DNA of 51,029 nt from Methylacidimicrobium cyclopophantes (GTDB taxonomy: Bacteria > Verrucomicrobiota > Verrucomicrobiia > Methylacidiphilales > Methylacidiphilaceae), in NCBI RefSeq assembly GCF_902143385.2, contig NZ_CABFUZ020000097.1, positions 1 to 51,029 on the forward strand, read 5' to 3'. A program made the translations under genes and the position numbers. This document shows positions 8,744 through 25,364 of this stretch, piece after piece. Position 1 is the first letter of the stretch. Each line of letters starts with the position of its first letter. A model generated the notes under the pieces. That model did not search any database. It was given only the letters and a program-made list of their open reading frames with translations, and was not told the DNA's origin.

Positions 8744-10312
8744 TTAGGGAGAAGAGAACGGCATCACCGGAGACGTCCCGGGCCCGGAAGGCGAACTGGT
8801 TTGCAGCATGTCATGAAGCGGAAGGCCGGTGCGATCTGGATTCCCCGAGGCCAAGCCCGCCTGGACAAAGAGATTTACCAATTGGTAACGCGCATTCATC
8901 TCGTTCTGATGGAGCGCGAGCCTCGCTTGCTGATAGGTATTCAAGGCGACGAGCACATCGAGAAGTTGCGCCACCCCTCGCTCGAAGTCCTGCCGCTGCG
9001 CCGCGTAATAGAGCGCGGAAACTTCGACCTGTTCCCGATATTGGAGAACCTGCCCTACGGCGGCATTAAAGAGAGCAAAGGCGATTCGAAGATTTTGATC
9101 CGCGGTACGCTTCAAATTCTCCACCTGAAGCTCGGCGGAATGGACGAGCGCTCGCTGCTGGCGGACATATCCCACGTAAAGGCCGCCGGTAAAAAGCGGC
9201 ATCGTCGTCACGATATTCGTGTTCCAGACTACGGGAGAAACAGGCTGATGGCTCAGGAAGTACGTGCCGGTCAACGCAGTGCGAGGGCCGAACTCGCCAA
9301 TGGCCACCGCCAACGTCGCTTTCTGGGAACGCAAAAGCTGCACCTGGGCAAGAATGTCCGGGCGGGTCCCCACGTGCACCAAGTATTCTTCCAAGGATTG
9401 GGATCCAGGGAAAGCTTGGCTCTCCTTCAAATCGATCTTCTCCGTGCCGATGCCCAAATAGTAATTGAGCACCGCTTTGTACTGGTTCCTCAGCCCGACA
9501 TAGTTTTCCCGCGAGGCGACCGATGCCGCGAGATTTGCCTGTCCTTGAAAGACGTCGGCCGGACGAGAACGACCAACTTTCCATCGGTACTGAAGCTCGT
9601 TCACGAGCCCCCGGAGGGCGGCAATCTGATCTTCCAGGATGATCACGCTGCCTTCATAATTCAGTTCCTGATAGAAGGCTTGGGCGACATTCAAATAGAG
9701 GTTCTGGTAGTCCCACTGCATCGAGTAGGTCTGCGCTGCGGCGGTCGCCCGCGCCGCCGCGACTCGGTTTTGTTGCCGCAAGCTATCGAAAAGAAGCCAG
9801 GTCGAGTTGATCGAGTTGAAGGAGAAGTAGCCCTGGGAAGCTCCCACCGCCACTCCGCCCACGGTGGGAATCACTCCGGTCGTGTTTTGGAAGCTCTGCA
9901 TGTTCTCCCAGGAAAATTGCGGAGCGAATGCCGACTGCGTCTGCGCTACCACCGCCTGCTGCGCGCGCACGGTCTGATAATCAATCTTCAACTGATCCCA
10001 ACGGATCGCCGCCAGCCGATAGCACTCAGCCAAGTCGATTGCTATTGGATCGGACCGTTTTCCGGCGATCGGGGAAACGGCTTCCAGCATCGTTTCCAGA
10101 GAAGGGAGATTGGAAACGGCGGGACGACTCGGGGCCGGCAGAGCCTGAGCCGGCAGGGCCCGTGCGGGCCAACCCGGCCGCCCCGTTCCCACCGCCTCCT
10201 CCTTCTGAGCCGTGACTCGGCACGGAAAAAGGGCCGGCAAACAAAACGCTCCGGCGGCGAGAATCGCCAATGATCGCTCCGACCCTTTGCGTCTCCTGAG
10301 CTCCTCTTTCAT
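8744..10312 (-). CDS. TolC-family outer-membrane efflux protein, second copy
   Basis: About 522 residues. I chose ATG at 10312 over a GTG at 10345 because it has a good GGAAGG ribosome site and starts directly before a signal peptide (MKEELRRRK, hydrophobic core, TA-QKEE). The body has the internal repeat of TolC-type channels: two long helical segments with alternating LQVENLKRTADQN and FQGQANLAASVASRE stretches. This protein should form a trimeric outer-membrane duct and periplasmic tunnel. It is a close paralog of the gene immediately upstream; from about residue 55 onward most positions are identical, while signal peptides and tails differ. It is probably co-transcribed with it, 39 bases apart. 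Confidence 0.92.
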   Translation of the reverse strand: MKEELRRRKGSERSLAILAAGAFCLPALFPCRVTAQKEEAVGTGRPGWPARALPAQALPAPSRPAVSNLPSLETMLEAVSPIAGKRSDPIAIDLAECYRLAAIRWDQLKIDYQTVRAQQAVVAQTQSAFAPQFSWENMQSFQNTTGVIPTVGGVAVGASQGYFSFNSINSTWLLFDSLRQQNRVAAARATAAAQTYSMQWDYQNLYLNVAQAFYQELNYEGSVIILEDQIAALRGLVNELQYRWKVGRSRPADVFQGQANLAASVASRENYVGLRNQYKAVLNYYLGIGTEKIDLKESQAFPGSQSLEEYLVHVGTRPDILAQVQLLRSQKATLAVAIGEFGPRTALTGTYFLSHQPVSPVVWNTNIVTTMPLFTGGLYVGYVRQQRALVHSAELQVENLKRTADQNLRIAFALFNAAVGQVLQYREQVEVSALYYAAQRQDFERGVAQLLDVLVALNTYQQARLALHQNEMNARYQLVNLFVQAGLASGNPDRTGLPLHDMLQTSSPSGPGTSPVMPFSSP

Positions 10313-10351
10313 AAAACGGACCTTCCCGCGCCGACTGTCGTTCACCGACCG

Positions 10352-11920
10352 CTACGGAATCGAAGCCTTCAACACCGGCGGGCTATTCGGACCCACCGGC
10401 GGTCCGGTGCGAAGGACATTCTGCAAAGGGAGGCCGGTGGCATCGATATTGGTCGGCGTCAGGCCCGCTTGGACGAAGAGATTCACCAACTGGTAGCGAG
10501 CATTCATCTCGGTCTGATGCAAAGCAAGCCTCGCCTGCTGATAGGTGTTCAAAGCCACCAAAACGTCGAGGAGTTGGGCGACGCCACGCTGAAAGTCGTC
10601 CCGCTGCGCCGCATAATAGAGAGCCGAGACTTCGACCTGCTCGCGATACTGGAGTACCTGCTCGACCGCGGCATTGAAGAGAGCAAAAGCAATCCGAAGG
10701 TTCTGGTCGGCCGTGCGCTTCAAATTCTCCACCTGGAGTTCCGCGACATGGACGAGTGCCCGCTCCTCTCGAACGGTCGAGGTGAGGAGGCCGCCGGTAA
10801 AGAGCGGCATCGTCGCCACGATGTTGACGGTCCAAACGACCGGAGAGTCCGGCTGGTGGCTCAAAAAGTAACTTCCCGCCACTCCGGCACGCGGGCCGAA
10901 ATTTCCAATGGCGACCGCCAGCTGAGCCTTCTGCGCACGCAAGAGCTGCAGTTGGGCGAGGACATCGGGCCGGCTCCCTACATGCACCAAATACTCTTCC
11001 AGGCTCTGTGAGCTGGGGAAAGGCTGCGTCTCTTTGAGGTTGACCTTCTCCGGACCGATTCCCAAGTAGTAGTTGAGCGTCGCCTTATACTGATTCATGA
11101 GCCCGACGTATCCCTCTCTCTGGGCGACCGCCGCAGCCAGGTTTGCTTGCCCCTGGAAAACGTCCGCGGGACGAGACCGCCCGATCTTGAGCCGATACTC
11201 AAGCTCGGTTACGAGTCCTTGCAGAGCGGCAATCTGATCCTCCAGAATCGAGACGCTCCCCTCATAGTTCAACTCTTGATAGAACGCCTGGGCGACATTG
11301 AGGTAGAGCATCTGGTAATCCCGCTGCAACGTGTAAGACTGCGCCGCAGCGTCCGCTCGAGCTGCGGCGACGCGGTTTTGTTGTCTCAAGCTGTCGAAGA
11401 GCAGCCAGGTAGTGTTGATGGAATTAAAAGAGAAATACCCCTGGGATGTTCCCACAGCCACCCCGCTGACGGTGGGAATGACCCCAGTCGTATTCTGGAA
11501 GCTCTGCATGTTCTCCCAAGAAAACTGCGGGAAGAACGCCGACAAGGTCTGCGTCACCACCGCCTGCTGAGCTCGTAGGGTCTGATAGTCGATCTTCAAC
11601 TGATCCCAACGGATCGCCGCCATCTGATAGCAGGCGGCTAGATCGAGTGCCTTCGGGTCGGACCGCTTCCCGGCGATCGGCGAGACGGCTTGCAGAAGCG
11701 CCTCGAGAGGAGGAGCATTGCCAGGAGCGGGACGTCCTTGCACCGGCTGCTCATAGGCCGGCAGCGCCCTGACCGGCCGAGTCGCCTGCGCTTTATCCGC
11801 CTCCAATTCGAGTCGAGCGAGAGCCGACCGGAACGGGAGACTGAAAAGAAGGACTACTCCCACACCCGCAGCGGTCAATCGCCGCGTCGGCCTGCTCTGC
11901 CTCGCCCTCGTTTGCTTCAC
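10352..11920 (-). CDS. TolC-family outer-membrane efflux protein, first copy
   Basis: About 522 residues from a GTG at 11920, which has GGGAG upstream and gives a signal peptide with a basic head (VKQTRARQSRPTRR) and hydrophobic core. A TTG at 11953 is an alternative start. Domains match its downstream paralog: a helical duct of duplicated coiled segments and short strands, with motifs such as WENMQSFQNTTGV and GIGPEKVNLKET shared almost unchanged. It leads the efflux cluster. A perfect 7-bp inverted repeat lies about 57 bases upstream and could be an operator. Two near-identical outer-membrane channels for two inner-membrane pumps suggests a duplicated export system or dosage. Confidence 0.92.
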   Translation of the reverse strand: MKQTRARQSRPTRRLTAAGVGVVLLFSLPFRSALARLELEADKAQATRPVRALPAYEQPVQGRPAPGNAPPLEALLQAVSPIAGKRSDPKALDLAACYQMAAIRWDQLKIDYQTLRAQQAVVTQTLSAFFPQFSWENMQSFQNTTGVIPTVSGVAVGTSQGYFSFNSINTTWLLFDSLRQQNRVAAARADAAAQSYTLQRDYQMLYLNVAQAFYQELNYEGSVSILEDQIAALQGLVTELEYRLKIGRSRPADVFQGQANLAAAVAQREGYVGLMNQYKATLNYYLGIGPEKVNLKETQPFPSSQSLEEYLVHVGSRPDVLAQLQLLRAQKAQLAVAIGNFGPRAGVAGSYFLSHQPDSPVVWTVNIVATMPLFTGGLLTSTVREERALVHVAELQVENLKRTADQNLRIAFALFNAAVEQVLQYREQVEVSALYYAAQRDDFQRGVAQLLDVLVALNTYQQARLALHQTEMNARYQLVNLFVQAGLTPTNIDATGLPLQNVLRTGPPVGPNSPPVLKASIP

Positions 11921-12230
11921 AACACCCAATCGCTCCCAAGAGGCTCTTACCAAGCTTAGCGCTTCCTCCCGAAGAGCCGGTTACCGATATAACCGGGTGG
12001 CGCGAAAAATGTCTCGCTTCCGCTAGCGCCATTCTCCCGATTCGCGAGAGCGTGTCAACGGACAGCGGCGCTGAAACGGATCGGCGTCCACGATCCTTCT
12101 CGGCTTCGGAAGGCCAGCCGGTCCAAGCACTCCCTCTTTGACGGGCGGACCCTTGGATCGGATCGCAGCCGCCTTCCCCGCAATTCGTATCCGCCACGCC
12201 GGATAGGGCGTGCATGCGGGGCGAACGGCG
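11921..12230. other. 310-bp intergenic stretch between tolC and purC
   Basis: No convincing gene. Open frames on the minus strand here have no recognisable content. Both flanking genes are read on the minus strand, so the stretch holds the 3' end of the purC transcript and the promoter of the efflux cluster. The clearest structure is the inverted repeat listed separately. Confidence 0.4.
11977..11996. promoter_or_regulatory. Perfect 7-bp inverted repeat upstream of the first tolC
   Basis: CCGGTTA and TAACCGG flank a 6-base spacer (CCGATA). The 20-bp size and symmetry suit a dimeric repressor site such as a TetR or MarR operator. It lies about 57-76 bases upstream of the chosen tolC start, where an operator or promoter would be expected. 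A short RNA hairpin is the alternative. No regulator gene of those families is in the window. Confidence 0.35.
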
Positions 12231-13109: not shown

Positions 13110-13268
13110 CGTCTCTGTCTACTCCCTCCGCTTCCGTTCCGTAAAGCCTGCAACTCTCTGCCAGTTCGGCGGGCAGCCGCCTTGCCAACCTTCCCAAGGA
13201 ATCGCTAGGATTCTCTCCGAGAGCCGCTTAGCGGCGCAGCGCCATGCCGGGTGCTGCTCCTATCGTGT

Positions 13269-15821
13269 ATGGGCATCGCCCGCGTCCAAGTTCGCGCGAA
13301 GTTTTTCTTCGAAGAGGAGCGGAAGTTTCCTATTCAAGGAGTAAGCTACGGACCGTTTGCTCCTCGTTCGACCGACGGAGCCCCGTTTCCTGAGCCCGCG
13401 ACCATTCGCAGCGACTTCTCGCAAATGAAGGAGTGCGGCTGCAACGTTCTCCGCGTTTATCACATTCCTCCCCTCGATCTGCTCGATTCGGCGCTCGATC
13501 ACGGACTGCGGGTTCTCATCACGATCCCATGGGTCGAGCGCACGCTCTTTTGGAAGGATCCCGCGATTCTTCGGAGGATCGAGGAACATGTCCGACAATC
13601 TGTCCGGGCAAGCGCGGGTCATCCGGCGATTTTCGCCTACTTGGTAGATAACGAGATCCCTCCGGATCTCGTTCGCTGGGCCGGGATCCGGAGGATCGAG
13701 CGCCACATCGATTCGCTGATCCGCTTGGTACGGGAAGAAGATCGGGAAGCGCTGGTAAGCTACGCAAATTATCCGCCGACCGAATACCTCCGTCCCTCGT
13801 CGGTCGATTTCGTCAGCTTCAACGTATATCTTCACCGACCGGAAGAGTTGCGCGCCTATTTGGCGCGCTTGCAAAACCTCTCCGGTGAGAAGCCTCTGCT
13901 GATATCCGAGTTTGGCATGGATACTCGCCGCCATTCGGAAATCGAGCAAGCCGACCTGCTCGCGGGCCATATCGAAGCGGTTTTTCAGAGCGGCGGAGCC
14001 GGCACGATCCTTTTCTCATGGACCGATGAATGGTTCACGGGCGGATCCGAAATCTCTGATTGGGCATTCGGACTGGTGAGGAAAGATCGCACTCCGAAAG
14101 AAAGCTTCCATCGGGTAAAATCTCTCTTCCGCTCTTGGAACGATCCGCTCTTCCGCCGCTTCCCCCTTCGACAGCTGCCAAAGATCTCCGTCATCGTCTG
14201 CAATTTCAACGGCGGCCGCTTCCTGGGAGACTGCATCCGCTCTCTCCAGCAACTCCAATATCCCGATTTCGAAATCATCGTGGTCGATGACGGTTCGACG
14301 GACGGCTCGCGCAAGCTCCTCGAAACCTTTGAAGGAATCCGAGTGATCCATCAGGAGAACGGGGGCTTGTCGGTCGCGCGAAACCGAGGAATCGCCGCTG
14401 CGGAAGGAGAGGTTCTTGCGTTCACCGATGCCGATTGCGTAGTCGACGAGGATTGGCTCTATTTTCTGGCGAGCGCTTTTCAGTCTGGCGATCTCGCTGG
14501 CGTGGGAGGACCGAACATCGCTCCCCCTCCGGCTACCGCAGTCGAAGCCGTCATTGCGGCGGCTCCCGGTTCCCCGTCTCATGTCCTGCTCACGGATCGG
14601 TTAGCGGAACACCTTCCCGGATGCAACATGGCCTTTCGGCGTACCGCCCTGGAGAAGATCGGAGGGTTTGTTCCGGAATTTCGGGTTGCCGGGGACGACG
14701 TCGATCTCTGTTGGAGGCTTCTCGATCAGGGTTTCGCTCTCGGCTTTTCGCCCGGCGCCCTGGTTTGGCACCGCCGGCGTTCAACCGTTTCGGCTTACCT
14801 CCGACAGCAAGCCGGCTATGGGAAGGCCGAAGGCCTGCTGCGCTTCCGCCACCCGTCGCGTTTCCGGTCGAGCGAGACAGCCTTCTGGAGAGGTCGAATC
14901 TATCCTTCGCCCGCTCCCCGCATTCCGATTCTCGAGCCCATCGTTTACCGCGGCGCTTTTGCCAGCGGCCTTTTCCAATATCTCTACGCTCGCCCTGCGC
15001 CTTCCTGGTTCTGGGTCGTCACCAGCATGGAATGGTTCGCGCTCGCTCTCCTATCCCTTGCGCTGAGCTTCCGCTGGCCCTGGTTTCTCGCTCCGACGCT
15101 CCTACTCGTTTTGGCTGGCATCATTCCGGCGGCACTCTACGGATTCCAGAGCCGACTCTCTCCGCGATTCGCAACGGGAACCAATCGATTCCTCCTGTCG
15201 GCCTTGGCGCTTTTACAACCGCTGGTTCGAAGCCTTCTCCGACGGCTTACCTGGCTGCGCGGCAAGCCCGCACCGACCACCCCGGAACCGTTGCCGGAAA
15301 TTGCTCGGCTGGAGGGAGCGCTCTTGCAGGAGGGAGTGGCCCTTTGGAGCGAATCGGGCATCGAACGCATCGGCCTCCTGGACAGGATTCAGTCGGTGTT
15401 GGAGGAGGATCGCTATTTTTCCGTCGTAGACGACGGCTGGAGCGATTGGGACATCCAAGTCTTTGCCGGACCATGGTGGCAAGTCCGCCTCCGCACCTTG
15501 ACCGAGGTCTATCCTCAAGGCGCAAGGCTGCTGCGAGTGGCTATTCTGCTCAAGCCGAGCCCTCTCTCCGCGCTTGCCTTGGTAGGCGGCGGCTTCTCGA
15601 TCGCCGCGGCCTTCGTCGCCTTTGGTCGACCCGCCCTGCCTCTCCTCGCAGGCGGCATTCTGACCTTGCTTCTCTGGCTCCGAGAGGGGCTTCGTCTTCG
15701 CCGCTGCCTTGCCACCCTGATAGGCAGGGCGGGTCAGCGACTCGGTCTGATACCGGTTTCCTGGCATCCTTTCGGCTCGCGTCCCGGCCCGCGCTTCGAC
15801 CCGCCGCAAGAGGAGCGATAA
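13269..15821 (+). CDS. Bifunctional clan GH-A glycoside hydrolase fused to a GT2 glycosyltransferase, membrane-bound
   Basis: About 850 residues from ATG 13269; a GTG at 13251 is possible and neither has a clear ribosome site. Residues about 20-285 form a GH2/GH5-like barrel: IQGVSYGPFAP, CNVLRVYHIPP, then VDNEIP with the acid/base Glu at about 129 and ISEFGMD with the nucleophile Glu at about 214. Residues 305-545 are a GT2 domain with VDDGSTDGS, TDADCVVDE, and GDDVDLCWRL followed by RQQAGYGKAEG. The C-terminal third has hydrophobic segments near 585-660 and 760-795. The protein probably polymerises a sugar at the inner membrane while the hydrolase trims or transfers the chain. The ABC exporter starting 6 bases later is the likely export partner. 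The glycan is unknown; beta-glucan is a guess by analogy with NdvB. Confidence 0.85.
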   Translation: MGIARVQVRAKFFFEEERKFPIQGVSYGPFAPRSTDGAPFPEPATIRSDFSQMKECGCNVLRVYHIPPLDLLDSALDHGLRVLITIPWVERTLFWKDPAILRRIEEHVRQSVRASAGHPAIFAYLVDNEIPPDLVRWAGIRRIERHIDSLIRLVREEDREALVSYANYPPTEYLRPSSVDFVSFNVYLHRPEELRAYLARLQNLSGEKPLLISEFGMDTRRHSEIEQADLLAGHIEAVFQSGGAGTILFSWTDEWFTGGSEISDWAFGLVRKDRTPKESFHRVKSLFRSWNDPLFRRFPLRQLPKISVIVCNFNGGRFLGDCIRSLQQLQYPDFEIIVVDDGSTDGSRKLLETFEGIRVIHQENGGLSVARNRGIAAAEGEVLAFTDADCVVDEDWLYFLASAFQSGDLAGVGGPNIAPPPATAVEAVIAAAPGSPSHVLLTDRLAEHLPGCNMAFRRTALEKIGGFVPEFRVAGDDVDLCWRLLDQGFALGFSPGALVWHRRRSTVSAYLRQQAGYGKAEGLLRFRHPSRFRSSETAFWRGRIYPSPAPRIPILEPIVYRGAFASGLFQYLYARPAPSWFWVVTSMEWFALALLSLALSFRWPWFLAPTLLLVLAGIIPAALYGFQSRLSPRFATGTNRFLLSALALLQPLVRSLLRRLTWLRGKPAPTTPEPLPEIARLEGALLQEGVALWSESGIERIGLLDRIQSVLEEDRYFSVVDDGWSDWDIQVFAGPWWQVRLRTLTEVYPQGARLLRVAILLKPSPLSALALVGGGFSIAAAFVAFGRPALPLLAGGILTLLLWLREGLRLRRCLATLIGRAGQRLGLIPVSWHPFGSRPGPRFDPPQEER

Positions 15822-17684: not shown

Positions 17685-18863
17685 TCAACCTTTGTTGGAC
17701 CGGTCGCGTTCTTTCTCGAATCGCGCCGCGACGGTGCCGATCCGGCTCACATCGTATCCCGGAAGAGCGGCGAACTCGGTCCGCAACCGGCGGTCCGAGA
17801 GGAGGTCGAGGAGCAAGGCAACCGTGGGATGTTCGGTCTGATCTTGCGGCACGATCCAATCAAATTCGCTTGTGCCCAGAGGAAGGAAGGCTACCCCTTG
17901 GGCCTCCGCACAGGCGCGGTTGGTCAGGGATGCATCGGCTACCCCGAGACGGACCGCTCGAGCCGCAGACACGGGGCTGGGAGCAGCCGTTTCATATCCT
18001 CGGATTGCCTCTTCCGGAATTCCCCGCTTCCGAAGCAGATCGTCCAAGAGGGCTCGGCTTCCCGACCCCGGATCCCGATTGAGAAATCGCAATCCTGGAT
18101 TGATCAAATCTTCCACCGAACGGATGCCGGCCGGATTGCCCGGCGCGAGAGCGATCCCCTCCTCCCACTGGGCGAAACGGATCAACATTCCGCCGAACTC
18201 TCGCAGAGCTTCCCGTGCGAGCACGACGTTATTGCGGGCCTCGTCTGCGGGGAGATGGCAACCCGCGAGATGCGTCTGCCCAGCGCGAAGGGCTGCCGCA
18301 GCCTCTTCGCTCGCACACGAGATCCAGCGCAGGCGATCCCGACTGACGGCGGCGAGTCTCTCCACGAGCAGACCGATGCCCGGGTCGCAGCCGAGAAAGA
18401 AAGCGCTCCGTTGAATGGCGGAAGCCGACGAAAGCAGCGTCCACCCGCCTCCCCGGCCTTCTCCCGGGAGAAGAGCATCGGCCGCCGTGAAGGCACCGGA
18501 GCCCTCTTCGATCCTTTCCACGGGGTAGGGCACCAACCGGCCGCGCACGTCCGCCAACACGATCCGCCTCCCCCCTGCTACCCCGGGAAACGGGCCGGAC
18601 AAGAGAGGAAGATCGATTCTGTCCCAGCAAGGAAAGAGCTCTTCGACACGGCTTCCGAGCGTGCGAGCAAGACGGATCGCCACGAGAGTGTTCGGAATGT
18701 AGCGCCCCGTCTCGATGGAATGCAGCGCTTGGCGTGTAATCCCGATGAGCTTCGCTAGCTCTTTTTGCGAAAAGCCTCTTTCGATCCGTTTTTGCCGGAC
18801 GGGCTTCTCGAACTCCGCAGCGCGGGCCTCGGATCCCCGAATTGGTTGTCTGCCATTTGCCAT
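17685..18863 (-). CDS. XRE-type DNA-binding regulator with a periplasmic-binding-protein-like ligand domain
   Basis: About 392 residues from ATG 18863, chosen over 18893 because only it has a ribosome site (AAGGA). Residues about 25-75 are an XRE helix-turn-helix (IERGFSQKELAKLIGITRQALHSIETGRYIPN). The rest resembles the cytoplasmic substrate-binding (PBP-like) domain found on such regulators, with GSGSRALLDDLLRKRGI and HPTVALLLDLL as in the molybdate/tungstate-type binding fold. It should be a ligand-responsive repressor or activator; the ligand (an oxyanion or small metabolite) is not decidable. It ends 10 bases from the ABC exporter on the opposite strand and lies just downstream of ftsZ; its target is unknown. 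Confidence 0.85.
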   Translation of the reverse strand: MANGRQPIRGSEARAAEFEKPVRQKRIERGFSQKELAKLIGITRQALHSIETGRYIPNTLVAIRLARTLGSRVEELFPCWDRIDLPLLSGPFPGVAGGRRIVLADVRGRLVPYPVERIEEGSGAFTAADALLPGEGRGGGWTLLSSASAIQRSAFFLGCDPGIGLLVERLAAVSRDRLRWISCASEEAAAALRAGQTHLAGCHLPADEARNNVVLAREALREFGGMLIRFAQWEEGIALAPGNPAGIRSVEDLINPGLRFLNRDPGSGSRALLDDLLRKRGIPEEAIRGYETAAPSPVSAARAVRLGVADASLTNRACAEAQGVAFLPLGTSEFDWIVPQDQTEHPTVALLLDLLSDRRLRTEFAALPGYDVSRIGTVAARFEKERDRSNKG

Positions 18864-18934
18864 GAGTCCTTTTCCGAGATCCCCTCTCGCCATGACCGCG
18901 TTCGATTACAGAACCAAGGAAGGATCGGACCGAT

Positions 18935-20080
18935 TCATTCGCCGGCGAATCGGCTCCCGCTTCTGCGTCGAAAGGCGGGAATATCGAGATTCTCCCCCTT
19001 GTGCATGGTAGCCGTGGTCTTGGCAAACGGAGCACTCTCCGCAGGGAAAGAAACCCGCCGTCCCTCGCGTTGTACTCCGACCGCCGCTTCTACGGGAAGC
19101 TCGGAGGACGTCCGCATCGGCTCGTTCCGAGCCTCCTCCGAAAGATCTTGTTTCTGGAGCCGAGAAACGCATCGCCCGAAAAGAAAGAGCCCATGATTTC
19201 GCATCGGGCGAGCTGGCGATCGCCCCAAAACACAGACGGGCGTCCCCCTCGGGAGAAGTTGGGCCAGCTTCTCCCGGGCTTCGTCCTGCATACCAAAAAT
19301 CTCCTCATCCGTCTCGAAGTATCCCACGCAATAATCGGCACTTTCCGCCGCCTGCCGGAAGTCGCTCCTCTCGAAGAGGGCCAATGGGGATCCATCCGCG
19401 CGGGGCCCCTTTTCCCAAAAGACGCGGCAATCCTCAACCCTACGACCGGCGGAAAAGGGCGACGAGTCCGCCCCACCTTCCAGGGAAACGGATCGGACCC
19501 CTCCGGAGGCGATCTCCCGCCATAGGTCCACCCATTGTCCGACCCCGGCCTGAAGATCCCGCAGCCGGCGCCGCACATCGGCGACTCCGGGGGTTGACCC
19601 GTTTTGTACGACCGGCGCGGTCGAGAAAAGAAACAACGAGGCCTCGGCGGGGAACTCGTCGCGAGCGATCTCCGCTGCCTTTCGTCGCTCCTCGGCTTCG
19701 AAGGGAAAAGGAAGAAACGCGAAGATTGCAGTGGGAATCTCCCGCTCCACCGACTTGAGAGAAAGAGCTTCCGCCACCGTCGCTCCTGTCGCGCCGGCAA
19801 GCCCGGTGAGAATCAGCAGCGAAGAGCAGCCCGTCAGCAGACTCTCGAGCCGCTGGTTCTCCTGCCCTACCATCCGCCATGCAAGATCCCGACTTCCAAA
19901 ACAGCCGAGCCCTCCCACGAGGTTGGGAGCCAGAAGGAGCTTTTCCCCTGCCAGCGACCCTTCCACCGCGGAAAGCTCTCCATCGCATGCAAAGCTCCCC
20001 TCCGGGGAATCCGACAGGAGAATCCACTCATCCAAGACGTTGATCCCCGCCGAACCTGCTCCGACGATGCGAACGCTCAT
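18935..20080 (-). CDS. ftsZ: Highly divergent FtsZ (tubulin-fold division protein)
   Basis: 381 residues from ATG 20080; the frame extends further upstream, but only from this start does the protein begin like FtsZ. Residues 3-18 (VRIVGAGSAGINVLDE) match the FtsZ T1 region. GGLGCFGSRD (56-65) matches the GLGAGANP segment. TGLAGATGAT (92-101) replaces the tubulin signature GGGTGTG. LPFPFEAEERRKAAE (123-137) matches KPFNFEGKKR. The C-terminal domain follows, then a linker and the tail peptide LDIPAFRRR (365-373), nearly the consensus that binds FtsA and ZipA. The T7 loop (about 190-206) lacks the catalytic NxDxxD motif. Position after ftsA is canonical. It probably forms or joins the Z-ring with altered GTP use, or is a ring-associated paralog. 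Confidence 0.85.
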   Translation of the reverse strand: MSVRIVGAGSAGINVLDEWILLSDSPEGSFACDGELSAVEGSLAGEKLLLAPNLVGGLGCFGSRDLAWRMVGQENQRLESLLTGCSSLLILTGLAGATGATVAEALSLKSVEREIPTAIFAFLPFPFEAEERRKAAEIARDEFPAEASLFLFSTAPVVQNGSTPGVADVRRRLRDLQAGVGQWVDLWREIASGGVRSVSLEGGADSSPFSAGRRVEDCRVFWEKGPRADGSPLALFERSDFRQAAESADYCVGYFETDEEIFGMQDEAREKLAQLLPRGTPVCVLGRSPARPMRNHGLFLFGRCVSRLQKQDLSEEARNEPMRTSSELPVEAAVGVQREGRRVSFPAESAPFAKTTATMHKGENLDIPAFRRRSGSRFAGE

Positions 20081-20109: not shown

Positions 20110-21345
20110 CTAAAAAAATCGGATCCCGGAAAGAAATCGTCGCAGCGACCTGCCCATACGGTTCCACCGACCACCTTCGCCCTCTTGCATTTCTGCGATC
20201 CTCCCATAGCGCAAGAGACCCAAGACGGTCGCCCAATCCTGTTTCCCCTCGCAGGAGACTTCCCCGTCAAAGGCGAGAAGCCTCCCGGCTTGCACGGGCC
20301 GATCAAAGATCTTTCCCGCCAATCCCTGGACTCCGTCGAGCCGGGATCCTCCGCCCGTCAGAATGATCGTTCCGGAAAAGCTCTCCCAAAACGGCTGCGC
20401 CTCCAAATCCTCTCGGATGATCTCGAAGATCTCGGCCTGCCTGGCCCGAAGGACGTCGACGATCAGGGACATCGGCACGAATCGCTGCTCATAAGGCCCT
20501 TCGGCCGGTAGACTGACCCGCCGGTACGCCACATCCTCCCGTACTTCCACCGTCCCGCTGCTTTTTTTGAGTTCCTCGGAGCGGGGGAACGGAATTTTCA
20601 CCGCGACGGCGAGATCGTTGGTGAGATGATCTCCTCCCACCCCGAGCGTCCCCGAATGGGCGACGTAGCCGTTCCGATAGACGATATAATCGGTAATTCC
20701 CGCCCCGCAATTGACCACCACCGCACCGGAGCTTTTCTGCTCCGGCGCGAGAAGGGCCTGTGCGGTAGCATAGCTGGATAGGGCATACCCCTTGACGCGA
20801 AGGGAAAGTCCCGTCACGCAATGGATGGTCGTCTGCAGACGCGTCGCAATCCCGGAAACCAGATGATAGTCGGCCATCAAGCGGCGGGAAAGGAGTCCCA
20901 CGGGGTTGGCGGTCGGCGTGCCATCGTCGAGAATGTAGGTCTGCAACAAATCGTGAAGCAAGATCTGACCTGGTGGTAGCGCTTGCTGCCGTACGAGTTG
21001 ACGCAGCTCTCGCAGATGGCCCTCCTCGATCATGGCTCCCTCCGCCCCTAAATCGAGGGCCAGGCGACTTTGGAAAGAGCGAATATGCGCCCCCGAAATC
21101 GCCAAGTAGACCTCTCCAATGGAAACCGCAGTCTTTGCTTCCGCATCCAAGATCGCTTGGTGGATTGCCTTTTGCGTCATCTCGAAATCGGTGATTTCGC
21201 ACTTACGAACATGCGTCGAAGGGCTCTCCGCGACTCCGAGAAGAGAGAGAGAGCCTTCCGCATCGAGCTCGGCAACCGCGACTTTGATTTTGCTCGTTCC
21301 CACCTCCAACCCGACAAGAACCGACCGAGACCTGCCGCCAAACAT
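20110..21345 (-). CDS. ftsA: Cell division protein FtsA
   Basis: 411 residues. The ATG at 21345 is preferred: AGGAG lies 7 bases before it, whereas the ATG at 21351 is too close. It is an actin-fold ATPase: phosphate-1 motif VGLEVGTSKIKVAV near the start, the 1C subdomain with EVYLAISGAHIRS, phosphate-2 VVVNCGAGITDYIVY, and adenosine motif IILTGGGSRLDGV. The last residues (NRMGRSLRRFLSGIRFF) make a basic amphipathic helix, the membrane-targeting sequence that tethers the Z-ring. It lies 10 bases after ftsQ and directly before the divergent ftsZ. FtsA itself looks ordinary, which supports the idea that the FtsZ tail still has its partner. Confidence 0.95.
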   Translation of the reverse strand: MFGGRSRSVLVGLEVGTSKIKVAVAELDAEGSLSLLGVAESPSTHVRKCEITDFEMTQKAIHQAILDAEAKTAVSIGEVYLAISGAHIRSFQSRLALDLGAEGAMIEEGHLRELRQLVRQQALPPGQILLHDLLQTYILDDGTPTANPVGLLSRRLMADYHLVSGIATRLQTTIHCVTGLSLRVKGYALSSYATAQALLAPEQKSSGAVVVNCGAGITDYIVYRNGYVAHSGTLGVGGDHLTNDLAVAVKIPFPRSEELKKSSGTVEVREDVAYRRVSLPAEGPYEQRFVPMSLIVDVLRARQAEIFEIIREDLEAQPFWESFSGTIILTGGGSRLDGVQGLAGKIFDRPVQAGRLLAFDGEVSCEGKQDWATVLGLLRYGRIAEMQEGEGGRWNRMGRSLRRFLSGIRFF

Positions 21346-21355
21346 CGACATTCTC

Positions 21356-22216
21356 CTAATATTCAAAAATTACCGGAACATTCTGCTCCGGAGTCAAATC
21401 GACGGAAGCTACCTTGCGGCCGCGACTCTGGGAAAAGGCATAGATCTTTTGGAGCCGCTTCATCTGCCTTTCCAGATGATCCAACCTCAAGACGATGCCA
21501 ACCCCATCACGGGTCACCACCTTCAGGCAGAGATGGCCGGAAACATCGAGACTCGCCGGATCGAGCAAATTTCGCAAAGAGGGCGTCCCCTGAAGCAGTC
21601 GAAGCAGACGGAGCGCTGCGCGGCATTCCTGGCTATCCAACCGGTTGCCGATCTCCAATTCGTCTGCCGGTACCCCTTCGATCTCCGGCAAAAGCGCAAG
21701 GACTTCCCCCTTTCGCGCCAGAAAAACGACCCCGTGGAAATCCACACACAAGTTCTGACCCGCAAATCGCTTCCCCTTCGTCCAAAGTTTCGCGAGCGGG
21801 ATCCGTTCCTCGACGGTAATGGCAATGCGATCGGGCAGGTCTCGACGAACGGAGACTCGCTGTACATAGGGAAGCGAGGCGATCGACTGATAGACCTCCG
21901 GCAACGAAATGCTCAGGAGATTTTGCCCTAAGCGAAGTTTCGAAGCGGACAAAATCTCCTTGCGAGGCAGGTGATCGGTTCCATCGAGGGTGATTTCCCG
22001 GAGCGCATAGCGAGAGTCTCTCGCAAAAAAGGGGAGAGCCAGTCGCGTCCCGGCATAATAACCGGCGCCACCTAGGAGGATGAGAGCCGCCAAGATCAGC
22101 ACGAGCGCAGAGATGCGCCGCAGAAAAAGCCGCCTCCGCTGCTGCGGACCCCCCTTGGTCTGCAACACGCTCTGCTTGGCTCGGTTTCGGCGGTTCGGTT
22201 TGCGAAAGCGATTCAT
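21356..22216 (-). CDS. ftsQ: Cell division protein FtsQ (DivIB)
   Basis: About 286 residues. ATG 22216 overlaps the ddl stop as ATGA, so the longer upstream frame is not used. A basic cytoplasmic head (residues 1-30), one membrane helix (about 31-52), then a periplasmic POTRA domain beginning YALREITLDGTDHLPRKEIL, followed by the beta domain with VSVRRDLPDRIAITVEER. FtsQ links early and late division proteins (FtsL/FtsB, FtsW, FtsI). Similarity in this family is weak, so domain order and cluster position carry much of the call. Confidence 0.9.
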   Translation of the reverse strand: MNRFRKPNRRNRAKQSVLQTKGGPQQRRRLFLRRISALVLILAALILLGGAGYYAGTRLALPFFARDSRYALREITLDGTDHLPRKEILSASKLRLGQNLLSISLPEVYQSIASLPYVQRVSVRRDLPDRIAITVEERIPLAKLWTKGKRFAGQNLCVDFHGVVFLARKGEVLALLPEIEGVPADELEIGNRLDSQECRAALRLLRLLQGTPSLRNLLDPASLDVSGHLCLKVVTRDGVGIVLRLDHLERQMKRLQKIYAFSQSRGRKVASVDLTPEQNVPVIFEY

Positions 22217-23115
22217 CTTGCGTTGCGTTCTTCCCAAGACAAAAGGAGGATCTTTTCGCAGAGCTGCGGAAATTCGAGCCCGGCCGCCCGTGCGGCTTTC
22301 GGGAAGAGGCTCGTCTCCGTCATTCCCGGAATCGTGTTCACCTCGATCACCCAAGGCTTCCCGTCTGCATCCAAGAGGAGATCCACTCTCCCATAAACCG
22401 TGCAACCCAAGGCTCGGTAGGCGGCAAGAGCCGCTCGGGCCGCCGAGTCGGCCTCTTCCCCCGTAAGTGGGGCCGGGCAGAGGTATTCCACCGCTCCGGG
22501 GGTGTACTTATTGCGATAGTCATAAAATCCGGCCTTGGGTCGAATTTCGACGACTGGCAAAAGTTCGCTCCCAAGGATACCGACCGTAAGCTCTCGTCCT
22601 TGGATATAGGCTTCGGCGATCACGAGATGATCTTCCTCGGCCGCTCGGATATAGGCTTCTCGATATTCTCCTTTTTGAAAAACGAGGCTGATTCCGATGC
22701 TCGATCCCTGGCGCGCGGGCTTGATAACAAAGGGAAGCGGCAGCGGCAGCTTGTCCCCGGAGCGGGCGAGAGCCCAATCTGGGGTCGGCACACCGCTTTT
22801 TCGGAAGATCTCCTTGCTCCACGACTTATCGAAAGCCCGCTCGCTCGCTTCCGCGCCACTGCCCGTGAATCGAACTCCTCGCCGCAACAGCAGCCTCTGC
22901 ACCTGGCCATCTTCCCCGAAAGTTCCGTGCAAACAGAGAAAGACGATGTCTGTATCCTGGGGAAGGGAAAGATCGACATCCCGCAAATCGATCTCCTCGA
23001 CCGGGTAATCGAGCTGGCGCAATGCCGCCGTCACGGCTCGCCCGGTTCGCAACGAAACCTCTCTTTCGTGGGAAGGTCCGCCTTCCAAGACGACCACTCG
23101 CAACTTCTCCTTCAC
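22213..23115 (-). CDS. ddl: D-alanine--D-alanine ligase
   Basis: 300 residues, GTG start forming GTGA with the stop of murC-murB. ATP-grasp enzyme that makes the D-Ala-D-Ala dipeptide for the peptidoglycan stem. Visible motifs are GGPSHEREVSLRTG at the N-terminus, LHGTFGEDGQVQ, the ATP-binding KPARQGSSIGIS, EIRPKAGFYDYRNKYTPGA, and the metal site VIEVNTIPGMTETS. The Tyr of the YDYRNKY loop indicates a ligase for alanine rather than lactate. Coupled by overlap to both neighbours. Confidence 0.97.
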   Translation of the reverse strand: MKEKLRVVVLEGGPSHEREVSLRTGRAVTAALRQLDYPVEEIDLRDVDLSLPQDTDIVFLCLHGTFGEDGQVQRLLLRRGVRFTGSGAEASERAFDKSWSKEIFRKSGVPTPDWALARSGDKLPLPLPFVIKPARQGSSIGISLVFQKGEYREAYIRAAEEDHLVIAEAYIQGRELTVGILGSELLPVVEIRPKAGFYDYRNKYTPGAVEYLCPAPLTGEEADSAARAALAAYRALGCTVYGRVDLLLDADGKPWVIEVNTIPGMTETSLFPKAARAAGLEFPQLCEKILLLSWEERNAR

Positions 23116-25364
23116 GAATTCTCCTCATCTCCGAGCACGGCTAGGTCGCAAACCACGTTTACCTCCCTTTTCCGGCAGAGCTGCCGGACGATCTCGACGA
23201 TGGCCAACACATCGGCAATCTTGACCTCGTCCCGCAGCTGGATGCGGTTCGGCACCCGGGGATTTACCGAGGCCCCGCCCACCGCGATTCCCTCACTGCC
23301 GATCTCCGCCCACACATCGTCGATCTCCCCTCCCTCGGCGGTTCGAAAGATTCCTTCGAGCCATCGACCCGTCATTTCCGGATCGGCTTCCACTCTTGCA
23401 GAGCGCATGGATGCAACGGAAGCCGCCGCTTTCGTACCGGGCGCGGTTCGAAAGGAGACGCCGACGACAACGCCAAGATGCGCGAGCGATCCTCTCTTCG
23501 AAAGAGCTTGCAGGTCGTGCCGCAGCAACGTCCGCACCTCTCCTTCCCGGTCGATCAGGACGATCTTTTCGATCCGATGAGCAAGCCGTCTCTCGAGACG
23601 ATCCACGCCTCGGATCAGCGCTCCCCCTACGGTTCCGCAAACCCCTGCACCGAGCGAAGAGAGGCTCGTTCCACCTCCGGCTTCCACTCTCCCGTCTTCG
23701 ACCACCACCCGACAGAAGGACGGGTGGCGGAGGCTCAAACAAATCCCGCGCATCCCCCCTTCCCGAACCAAGCTCCCCGTTCCCATGCCGACGACATTCA
23801 AGGAGATCTTCTCGCGACAAGCGATCTTCGCCAATCGGCAGACATCTTGCCGAGTCGCCGGCTCGCACCAGAATTCCGCAGGGCCTCCCAGCCCCGAGGA
23901 GGTATGCTTGCCGAGAGGCTCCTCCATCGCGAGGATGGCCGACGGCGACAGCGATCGCCGCATCTCCTCGTAAAGAGAACATTGACCCGCGAGCGCGCGA
24001 GCCACACGGTGCACGTCACCGGCCCCCAAGGCCAGAAAGAGATCCCCCGGGCGGAGCGCCGCAGCAGCCCTCCGCCTGGTTTCCGAGGGGGTGCGTGCGG
24101 AAAGCACCTCGACCCCGCTCCCCTCGGCGATCGTATGCGCCAGCCGCTCGGAGTTCACTCCCTCGATCGGTTTCTCGCCGGCACCATAAATTTCCGTCAC
24201 CAAGACCAGATCCGCTCCGCGGAAGGCGGTCGCAAAGCCCTTCTCCAACCCATGGGCACGGGAATAGCGATGAGGCTGGAAAAGGGCGACTACCCGCCTT
24301 CGGCCCGCCCCTCGTGCGGCAGCGAGCGTTGCTCGAATCTCCGTAGGGTGATGGGCGTAGTCATCGACGACCAAGAACGACGAACCCGCAAAGAGGACCT
24401 CGAAACGCCGTTTGACCCCCCGAAAACCCGCCATCGCCGCTCCGATATCGCCGAGCGGGAGTCCAAGCTCGAGGCTCAAGGCAATTCCGGCCAAGGCATT
24501 CTGCACATTCTGGCTTCCCGGCAGGGGCAGGCGAATCTCTCCCAGCGGTCTTCCCTCGTCGACCAAGAGGAAGGTACTTTCGAACGGCTTCAGCTTGACG
24601 CTCTCCGCGCGGTATCTTCCACCCGAGCCCAAGCCGTAGCTCACCGCATTCTCCCGATGAGCGCAGAGCTTGGATGCATACGGATCGTCCGCGCAATAGA
24701 TGATCTTTCCGGAACATCGATTCAAAAATGTGGCAAAAACCTCCAGGATGGCATCCATCCCCGGGTAGAAGTCGAGATGCTCCTCCTCTACGTTCAGAAG
24801 CACGGCGTGGGTCGGTTGAAAGGACGCCAGCGTCCCGTCGCTCTCGTCGCCCTCGATGACCATGTAATCCCCCTTCCCCCAGTCGGAGCTCGGGCCCAGA
24901 ACGGGAACATCGCCGCCTACATAGTAGGACGGCTCCCATCCGCTCTGACGTAGGATATGAGCCAACAGGGCGGTGGTCGTTGTCTTGCCGTGCATTCCTG
25001 CAACGACGATCGATTTTTTCGTGCGGCAGAGTTCCTGAAGCAAGTCGGCTCTTCGTGCGGTCGGAATCCCCCGTGCAACCGCGATCTTTCGCTCGGGATT
25101 ATCCTCACGAACGGCGGAAGAGTAGACCAGAAGGTCTACTCCTTCCGGGACGCCGCCGTCATGGCCGCAGGAGAAGCGCAAGCCCAATTCTTCGAGATCC
25201 TCGATCGCGGCCGTTCGGCGCCGATCCGACCCCGAGACCTGATGGCCTAGCAACAGCAAGAGGCGAGCGAGCGGCCCCACGCCCGCCCCCGCCACACCCA
25301 CAAGATGAATCCGCGCGGGCCGGCTCAAGCAGCCGTTCCACGAACGCGTCAACGTCGCATGCAC
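23112..25364 (-). CDS. murC: MurC-MurB fusion; MurC intact, MurB domain apparently degenerate
   Basis: 750 residues; GTG 25364 has AGGAGG seven bases upstream. Residues 15-465 are UDP-MurNAc:L-alanine ligase, with P-loop GMHGKTTTT (123-131), EGDESDGT, DDYAHHPTE, FQPHRYSR and GAGDVHR, all as expected. Residues about 485-747 align with MurB (UDP-enolpyruvyl-GlcNAc reductase): GLGGPAEFW, GTVGGAL, DREGEVRTL and GGASVN are recognisable. However, the NAGAYG part of the FAD site is replaced, about 17 residues before it are missing, the YR and GS-F-NP motifs are gone, and the terminal catalytic Glu region reads VNVVCDLAVLG. Reductase activity is therefore doubtful. MurC-MurB fusions are known in some bacteria; a decayed MurB half is not something I know of. 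Confidence 0.9.
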   Translation of the reverse strand: MHATLTRSWNGCLSRPARIHLVGVAGAGVGPLARLLLLLGHQVSGSDRRRTAAIEDLEELGLRFSCGHDGGVPEGVDLLVYSSAVREDNPERKIAVARGIPTARRADLLQELCRTKKSIVVAGMHGKTTTTALLAHILRQSGWEPSYYVGGDVPVLGPSSDWGKGDYMVIEGDESDGTLASFQPTHAVLLNVEEEHLDFYPGMDAILEVFATFLNRCSGKIIYCADDPYASKLCAHRENAVSYGLGSGGRYRAESVKLKPFESTFLLVDEGRPLGEIRLPLPGSQNVQNALAGIALSLELGLPLGDIGAAMAGFRGVKRRFEVLFAGSSFLVVDDYAHHPTEIRATLAAARGAGRRRVVALFQPHRYSRAHGLEKGFATAFRGADLVLVTEIYGAGEKPIEGVNSERLAHTIAEGSGVEVLSARTPSETRRRAAAALRPGDLFLALGAGDVHRVARALAGQCSLYEEMRRSLSPSAILAMEEPLGKHTSSGLGGPAEFWCEPATRQDVCRLAKIACREKISLNVVGMGTGSLVREGGMRGICLSLRHPSFCRVVVEDGRVEAGGGTSLSSLGAGVCGTVGGALIRGVDRLERRLAHRIEKIVLIDREGEVRTLLRHDLQALSKRGSLAHLGVVVGVSFRTAPGTKAAASVASMRSARVEADPEMTGRWLEGIFRTAEGGEIDDVWAEIGSEGIAVGGASVNPRVPNRIQLRDEVKIADVLAIVEIVRQLCRKREVNVVCDLAVLGDEENS

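Follow-up and report, generated by a model that had tools for sequence, protein, structure and literature searches.

The sole FtsZ of Methylacidimicrobium cyclopophantes appears to have lost most GTP-handling residues while keeping its fold and an FtsA-docking-type tail

In most bacteria, septal wall synthesis is considered to be organised by FtsZ as it treadmills, driven by GTP. The gene that follows ftsA in Methylacidimicrobium cyclopophantes raises the question of what remains for an FtsZ to do when the motifs for binding and splitting GTP are eroded. It lies in a window of 51,029 nucleotides (the whole stretch of DNA analysed here), which corresponds to one of the 273 contigs of a draft genome of 2.28 Mb. 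The gene occupies positions 18935-20080 on the minus strand, with its ATG at 20080 and its stop at 18935-18937, and encodes 381 amino acids; the plus-strand frame across the same interval is interrupted by stops, which marks the minus strand as the coding one. Its start is found 29 bp past the ftsA stop in a dcw cluster with ftsW, murG, a murC-murB fusion, ddl, ftsQ and ftsA, in agreement with a sequence-only reading of this DNA that had placed it next after ftsA. The features considered below are as follows.

18935..20080, minus strand: divergent ftsZ, the genome's sole FtsZ, 381 aa (PF00091, PDB matches, profile-profile comparison and model)
19661..20080, minus strand: N-lobe, residues 1-140, with T1-T5 (81% mean identity among six Methylacidimicrobium species, with dN/dS of about 0.1)
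20039..20062, minus strand: T1 loop GAGSAGIN (residues 7-14), canonical G20, G21 and G23 replaced
19778..19804, minus strand: T4 loop GLAGATGAT (residues 93-101) replacing GMGGGTGTG, with alanine at the E. coli G105 position (ftsZ84)
19685..19711, minus strand: T5/H5 segment PFPFEAEER, equivalents of E138 and R142 kept
19466..19504, minus strand: T7 loop position GGVRSVSLEGGAD, lacking the catalytic Asn/Asp and unconserved within the genus
19160..19387, minus strand: FtsZ C-terminal domain remnant, below detection by Pfam FtsZ_C and modelled by AlphaFold in blocks with a pLDDT of about 68-90
18962..18988, minus strand: FtsA-binding-type tail LDIPAFRRR (residues 365-373), from sequence comparison
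20110..21366, minus strand: ftsA, intact, the C-terminus of its product carrying an amphipathic-type helix RMGRSLRRFLSGIRFF (identity within the genus 84-85%)
21356..22405, minus strand: ftsQ (domain matches POTRA_1 and FtsQ_DivIB_C)

Several other genes of the window deserve mention. A fusion of an HTH regulator with a PBP-like domain (17685-18893, minus strand) is located immediately 3' of ftsZ in both Methylacidimicrobium and Methylacidiphilum, and the murC-murB fusion (23112-25364, minus strand) has a counterpart in Verrucomicrobium spinosum (PMC12283558). A tandem pair of similar outer membrane efflux (OEP) genes is present at 8744-10345 and 10352-11953 (minus strand), and a glycoside hydrolase family 2-like TIM barrel is joined to a family 2 glycosyltransferase at 13251-15821 (plus strand). 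In FtsA (20110-21366) the E. coli ATP motif DIGGGTMD is replaced by NCGAGITD in Methylacidimicrobium, with the Asp changed to Asn, and by DLGAGLSD in Methylacidiphilum.

The gene is best explained as an FtsZ by descent, vertically inherited within the dcw cluster. Its product matches the Pfam Tubulin family PF00091 above the cut-off (38.2 bits versus 33), falls below that of the NCBI FtsZ equivalog TIGR00065 (27.2 bits versus 295.2) and has no match to PF13809 (FtsZl1/Tubulin_2). The best PDB sequence matches are FtsZ throughout (E down to 2.4e-9), and of 145 genomes sampled across the phylum 144 have a match, the best match in M. cyclopophantes, this gene, being the weakest of all. The suggestion that it aligns with FtsZ along its length holds for a profile-profile comparison against 24 FtsZs from its order (99.9%, covering residues 2-307; 0.2% for FtsA as negative control) and for the fold, but not for plain pairwise alignment with known FtsZs, which is limited to residues 2-147; the core beyond residue 147 is recognisable by profile-profile comparison or fold only. 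Among sequence searches, the FtsZ_C remnant is seen by profile-profile comparison only, and PF12327 matches in none of the 13 family genomes, as against 14 of 17 genomes from the rest of the order. In the tree, the divergent protein falls inside the FtsZs of its order.

The predicted structure points in the same direction. AlphaFold run on three family sequences alone gave a pLDDT of 38.8, and this model was not used. In a second alignment, N-terminal parts of canonical FtsZs encoded on viral contigs added depth over the N-lobe, the C-terminal half keeping the depth of the three family sequences only, and here the model reached a pLDDT of 74 and a pTM of 0.75 (N-lobe blocks mostly at least 89), with a long H7 and a C-terminal domain in a two-domain FtsZ/tubulin fold. 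The best 50 PDB matches listed for this model are all FtsZ (E down to 3.3e-17, about 317 columns), and no sign of a non-tubulin fold was seen; since canonical FtsZ sequences had been added over the N-lobe, the fold result is not independent of the homology. As for the viral sequences themselves, many IMG/VR contigs (L106-L179) carry a canonical FtsZ core, with contamination possible, and in 16 of 18 checked cases from the viral collection the frame stops right past the core, without an FtsA-binding tail. Unannotated phage records have relatives that are mostly 50-60% identical, and viral scans with E. coli FtsZ and the family alignment as queries found no relatives.

Judged from sequence and model, most residues needed for GTP binding and hydrolysis are lost, and the fold and an FtsA-docking-type tail are retained. 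The features listed in the sequence-only reading (GAGSAGIN at T1, GLAGATGAT, no NxDxxD, and the tail LDIPAFRRR) are all present. The tubulin signature GGGTG[ST]G is absent, with AGATGAT in its place; AGATGAT is the T4 form in the genus, apart from AGGMGAT in one species. The T108 position is methionine in G003, and T3 reads CFG in Methylacidimicrobium. No NxDxxD motif is found at T7, where the equivalents of N207, D209 and D212 are S/S/G or S/P/gap depending on the alignment. FtsZ contacts the guanine base through N24, N165 and N186; the equivalents here are N/A/Q and vary across the genus, with N, S, D or Q at the N24 position. The first signature glycine (G105) is alanine in every species of the genus having that part of the gene, at the very position changed in E. 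coli ftsZ84 (G105S; PMC4603965). In S. aureus FtsZ, six residues are key for subunit association or hydrolysis (D46, Q48, R143, N208, D210 and D213), and single changes at five of them suppress assembly (PMC8936486). By their E. coli equivalents, every Methylacidimicrobium species for which the N-lobe is present keeps R142 alone (one of six). The number kept is 1-3 for Methylacidiphilum, 1-4 for the order's other families and 2-6 for the rest of the phylum, and four of the five assembly-critical positions are altered here, D45 only to E. The pocket still has the GxTG of T4, E138 and R142. The absence of T7 together with the loss of guanine contacts makes GTP hydrolysis improbable, and because GxTG, E138 and R142 survive, weak nucleotide binding may be possible, GTP binding as such being doubtful.

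Such changes in a draft of 273 contigs could be suspected to arise from assembly or sequencing error. However, all five other Methylacidimicrobium species for which the relevant part of the gene is present show the same changes at 57-60% protein identity, and identical changes occur in independent assemblies including the single-contig G004 and G005. Sequencing error is therefore refuted, and its probability is practically nil; the close relatives restore neither GGGTGTG nor T7, a return that the sequence-only reading had linked to such error.

Erosion of the motifs is graded across the order. Methylacidiphilum, which we take to be the sister genus, shows a milder form, with T4 as GG[AG]MGSA and T7 without a conserved acid, while an outer family (f2) mostly has GGGTGSG at T4 and retains D212 without N207 and D209, and T4 is variable in families f8 and f9. 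T7 is already imperfect in many Verrucomicrobiota, suggesting that the lineage began from a relaxed state. In several families of the phylum (L056, L057 and others) T7 reads NLDF[AS]T, the D212 equivalent being Thr or Ser, with the signature intact. The stems to the two genera are long (2.17 and 2.05 changes per column) and the branches inside them short, which implies an evolutionary burst followed by constraint; as the long branches meet in the tree, the exact branching is unsure. A tail of the FtsA-binding type is conserved in each sampled orthologue from the order that has its C-terminus. Neither ZapA nor SepF was found in any sampled genome of the order, so that they are uninformative on the divergent ftsZ, and MreB, present in all sampled genomes, does not discriminate either.

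It had been proposed that the protein might be a ring component beside another, canonical FtsZ, and this is not supported by the genomes. There is one PF00091 place and no second match in the M. cyclopophantes genome, and likewise one place each, with no canonical ftsZ elsewhere, in G004, G005, G007, G010, G011 and G012, six closed genomes from the same family; the same search was positive in 13 of 14 control genomes. As the sole FtsZ, the protein is not a helper alongside another. The other proposal, a change in the main division tubulin itself, is supported in so far as this is the only FtsZ and the changes are genus-wide; GTP binding may be either altered or abolished.

A second member of the superfamily is nevertheless encoded in the genome, namely FtsZl1 (Tubulin_2, PF13809; 1017 aa; L189:4023-7076 on contig C148), a protein described from M. 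infernorum (PMC2875224), the gene of which adjoins that of an OmpA/PBP-like protein. It could be argued that FtsZl1 has taken over the GTPase job and left FtsZ as a relic adaptor, in accordance with its intact GTP loop (AGGTGSG) and its presence in 7/7 Methylacidimicrobium and 4/5 Methylacidiphilum genomes (11 of 12 together); it is absent from the third genus, and no above-cut-off match occurs in 11-12 other genomes of the order. However, the closed genome G010 has an eroded FtsZ without any FtsZl1, and in three controls (Deinobacterium, Corynebacterium and Methanosarcina) FtsZl1 coexists with a PF00091 FtsZ match. Its absence from the one and its occurrence beside ordinary FtsZ in other bacteria make such a replacement very unlikely. 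Moreover, FtsZl1 is located outside the dcw cluster and is without recognisable T6-H7 and FtsZ C-terminal domain (PMC2875224).

The pattern of selection indicates that the gene is not decaying. N-lobe identity within the genus is 77-88% (mean about 81%), and that of the remaining core is far lower. In wider pairs, for which dS is near saturation, dN/dS (NG86) is about 0.1 in the N-lobe as well as in the tail, whereas the middle and lower core have 0.4-0.5; in the closer pairs G002-G003 and G001-G004 it is about 0.13 and 0.25 for the N-lobe and about 0.4 for the middle. FtsA has values of about 0.08-0.18, comparable to the N-lobe constraint, and the T4 variant AGATGAT is retained despite synonymous codon differences. 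The ratio of lower-core to N-lobe divergence is 2.49 in the genus versus 0.94-1.56 in seven other clades. T7 and the bottom filament face belong to the lower core, the fast evolution of which suggests a bottom face that has lost its partner, with the top face remaining under selection. A gene on its way to being lost from a cell that no longer needs FtsZ for division might also show fast lower-core evolution and the very long stems noted above, but the frame is open in every examined species with the full gene, and the low dN/dS of the N-lobe and tail, with N-lobe constraint near that of FtsA, speaks against a decaying relic, which we consider exceedingly unlikely.

We somewhat favour the explanation that a vertically inherited FtsZ has turned into a non-hydrolysing scaffold tethered by FtsA. 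Such a protein would neither hydrolyse GTP nor treadmill; its tail would bind FtsA, which has a putative membrane helix of its own, and the top face of the N-lobe, altered yet conserved, would bind itself or a partner. A static or FtsA-driven scaffold could then gather the septal wall enzymes, with the bottom filament face freed from constraint. Release of this face would make classic head-to-tail, GTP-gated protofilaments unlikely, and the tail together with an intact FtsA ending in an amphipathic-type helix makes FtsA docking the best-supported candidate function. Thus, Methylacidimicrobium probably relies for division on a ring protein that has ceased to consume GTP. Apart from the surviving GxTG, E138 and R142, two observations weigh against a scaffold: E. 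coli cells with ftsZ84 (G105S) still divide at the permissive temperature (PMC4603965), so that pocket damage need not abolish polymer function, and the eroded T7 and T4 in other families of the order imply that some of the loss may suit a still active polymer.

The main rival is a re-engineered nucleotide switch, in which the pocket binds GTP or another ligand differently and filaments still assemble, turning over slowly or not at all. Within the genus, the pocket motifs are conserved in their altered form (ACDGE, GLGCFG, GLAGATGAT and PFPFE), GxTG, E138 and R142 are retained, and purifying selection on the N-lobe is strong, all of which would suit a switch. However, the T7 residues are gone and their region is unconserved, the guanine contacts are lost or variable (N24 as N/S/D/Q, T108 as M in G003), and in S. 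aureus D46A, N208L, D210N and D213N each impair assembly (PMC8936486). We regard such a switch as possible but unlikely.

Earlier work gives hints of this divergence. The evolution of ftsZ was reported as accelerated in M. infernorum, with data not shown (Hou et al. 2008; PMC2474590), its FtsZ was detectable only via an alternative query (Rivas-Marin et al. 2016; PMC5147048), and verrucomicrobial FtsZ has been placed among the most divergent (PMC9871819). In searchable papers, outside which most subscription papers lie, the motif losses and the FtsZ of Methylacidimicrobium are undescribed, and a literature search for a pseudo-GTPase FtsZ gave no match. We see roughly an even chance that this free-living bacterium, the wall and division cluster of which looks complete, has a pseudo-GTPase as its sole FtsZ, dividing with an FtsA-tethered tubulin scaffold without GTP-driven treadmilling, a condition reached stepwise in one order of Verrucomicrobiota. 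If true, a sole FtsZ without its catalytic loop and most nucleotide contacts, with fold, tail and strong selection kept, would reveal which functions of FtsZ are dispensable. Across the order, FtsZ grades from an intact signature to none at all, which makes the idea testable in culturable species.

Compared with canonical bacterial FtsZ (TIGR00065, PF00091 plus PF12327), the protein shares the fold, the position after ftsA, the linker, the FtsA-type tail and the single copy, and differs in the loss of the tubulin signature and T7, the replacement of most nucleotide contacts and an undetected FtsZ_C. A counterpart from the same family and locus is the FtsZ of Methylacidiphilum (M. infernorum V4), which has likewise lost T108, T7 and a detectable FtsZ_C, but which retains N24, N165, N186, D45 and G105. 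FtsZ of other Verrucomicrobiota orders also has a partly eroded T7, with D212 changed to T or S in several families, whereas its tubulin signature is mostly intact. FtsZl1 belongs to the same FtsZ/tubulin superfamily and occurs in the same genomes, but is about 1000 aa long, with an intact GTP loop, another C-terminus and a place outside the dcw cluster. E. coli FtsZ84 is likewise changed at the first signature glycine and is GTP-defective yet functional in vivo at the permissive temperature; in contrast to the divergent FtsZ, it represents a single laboratory mutation in an otherwise intact protein.
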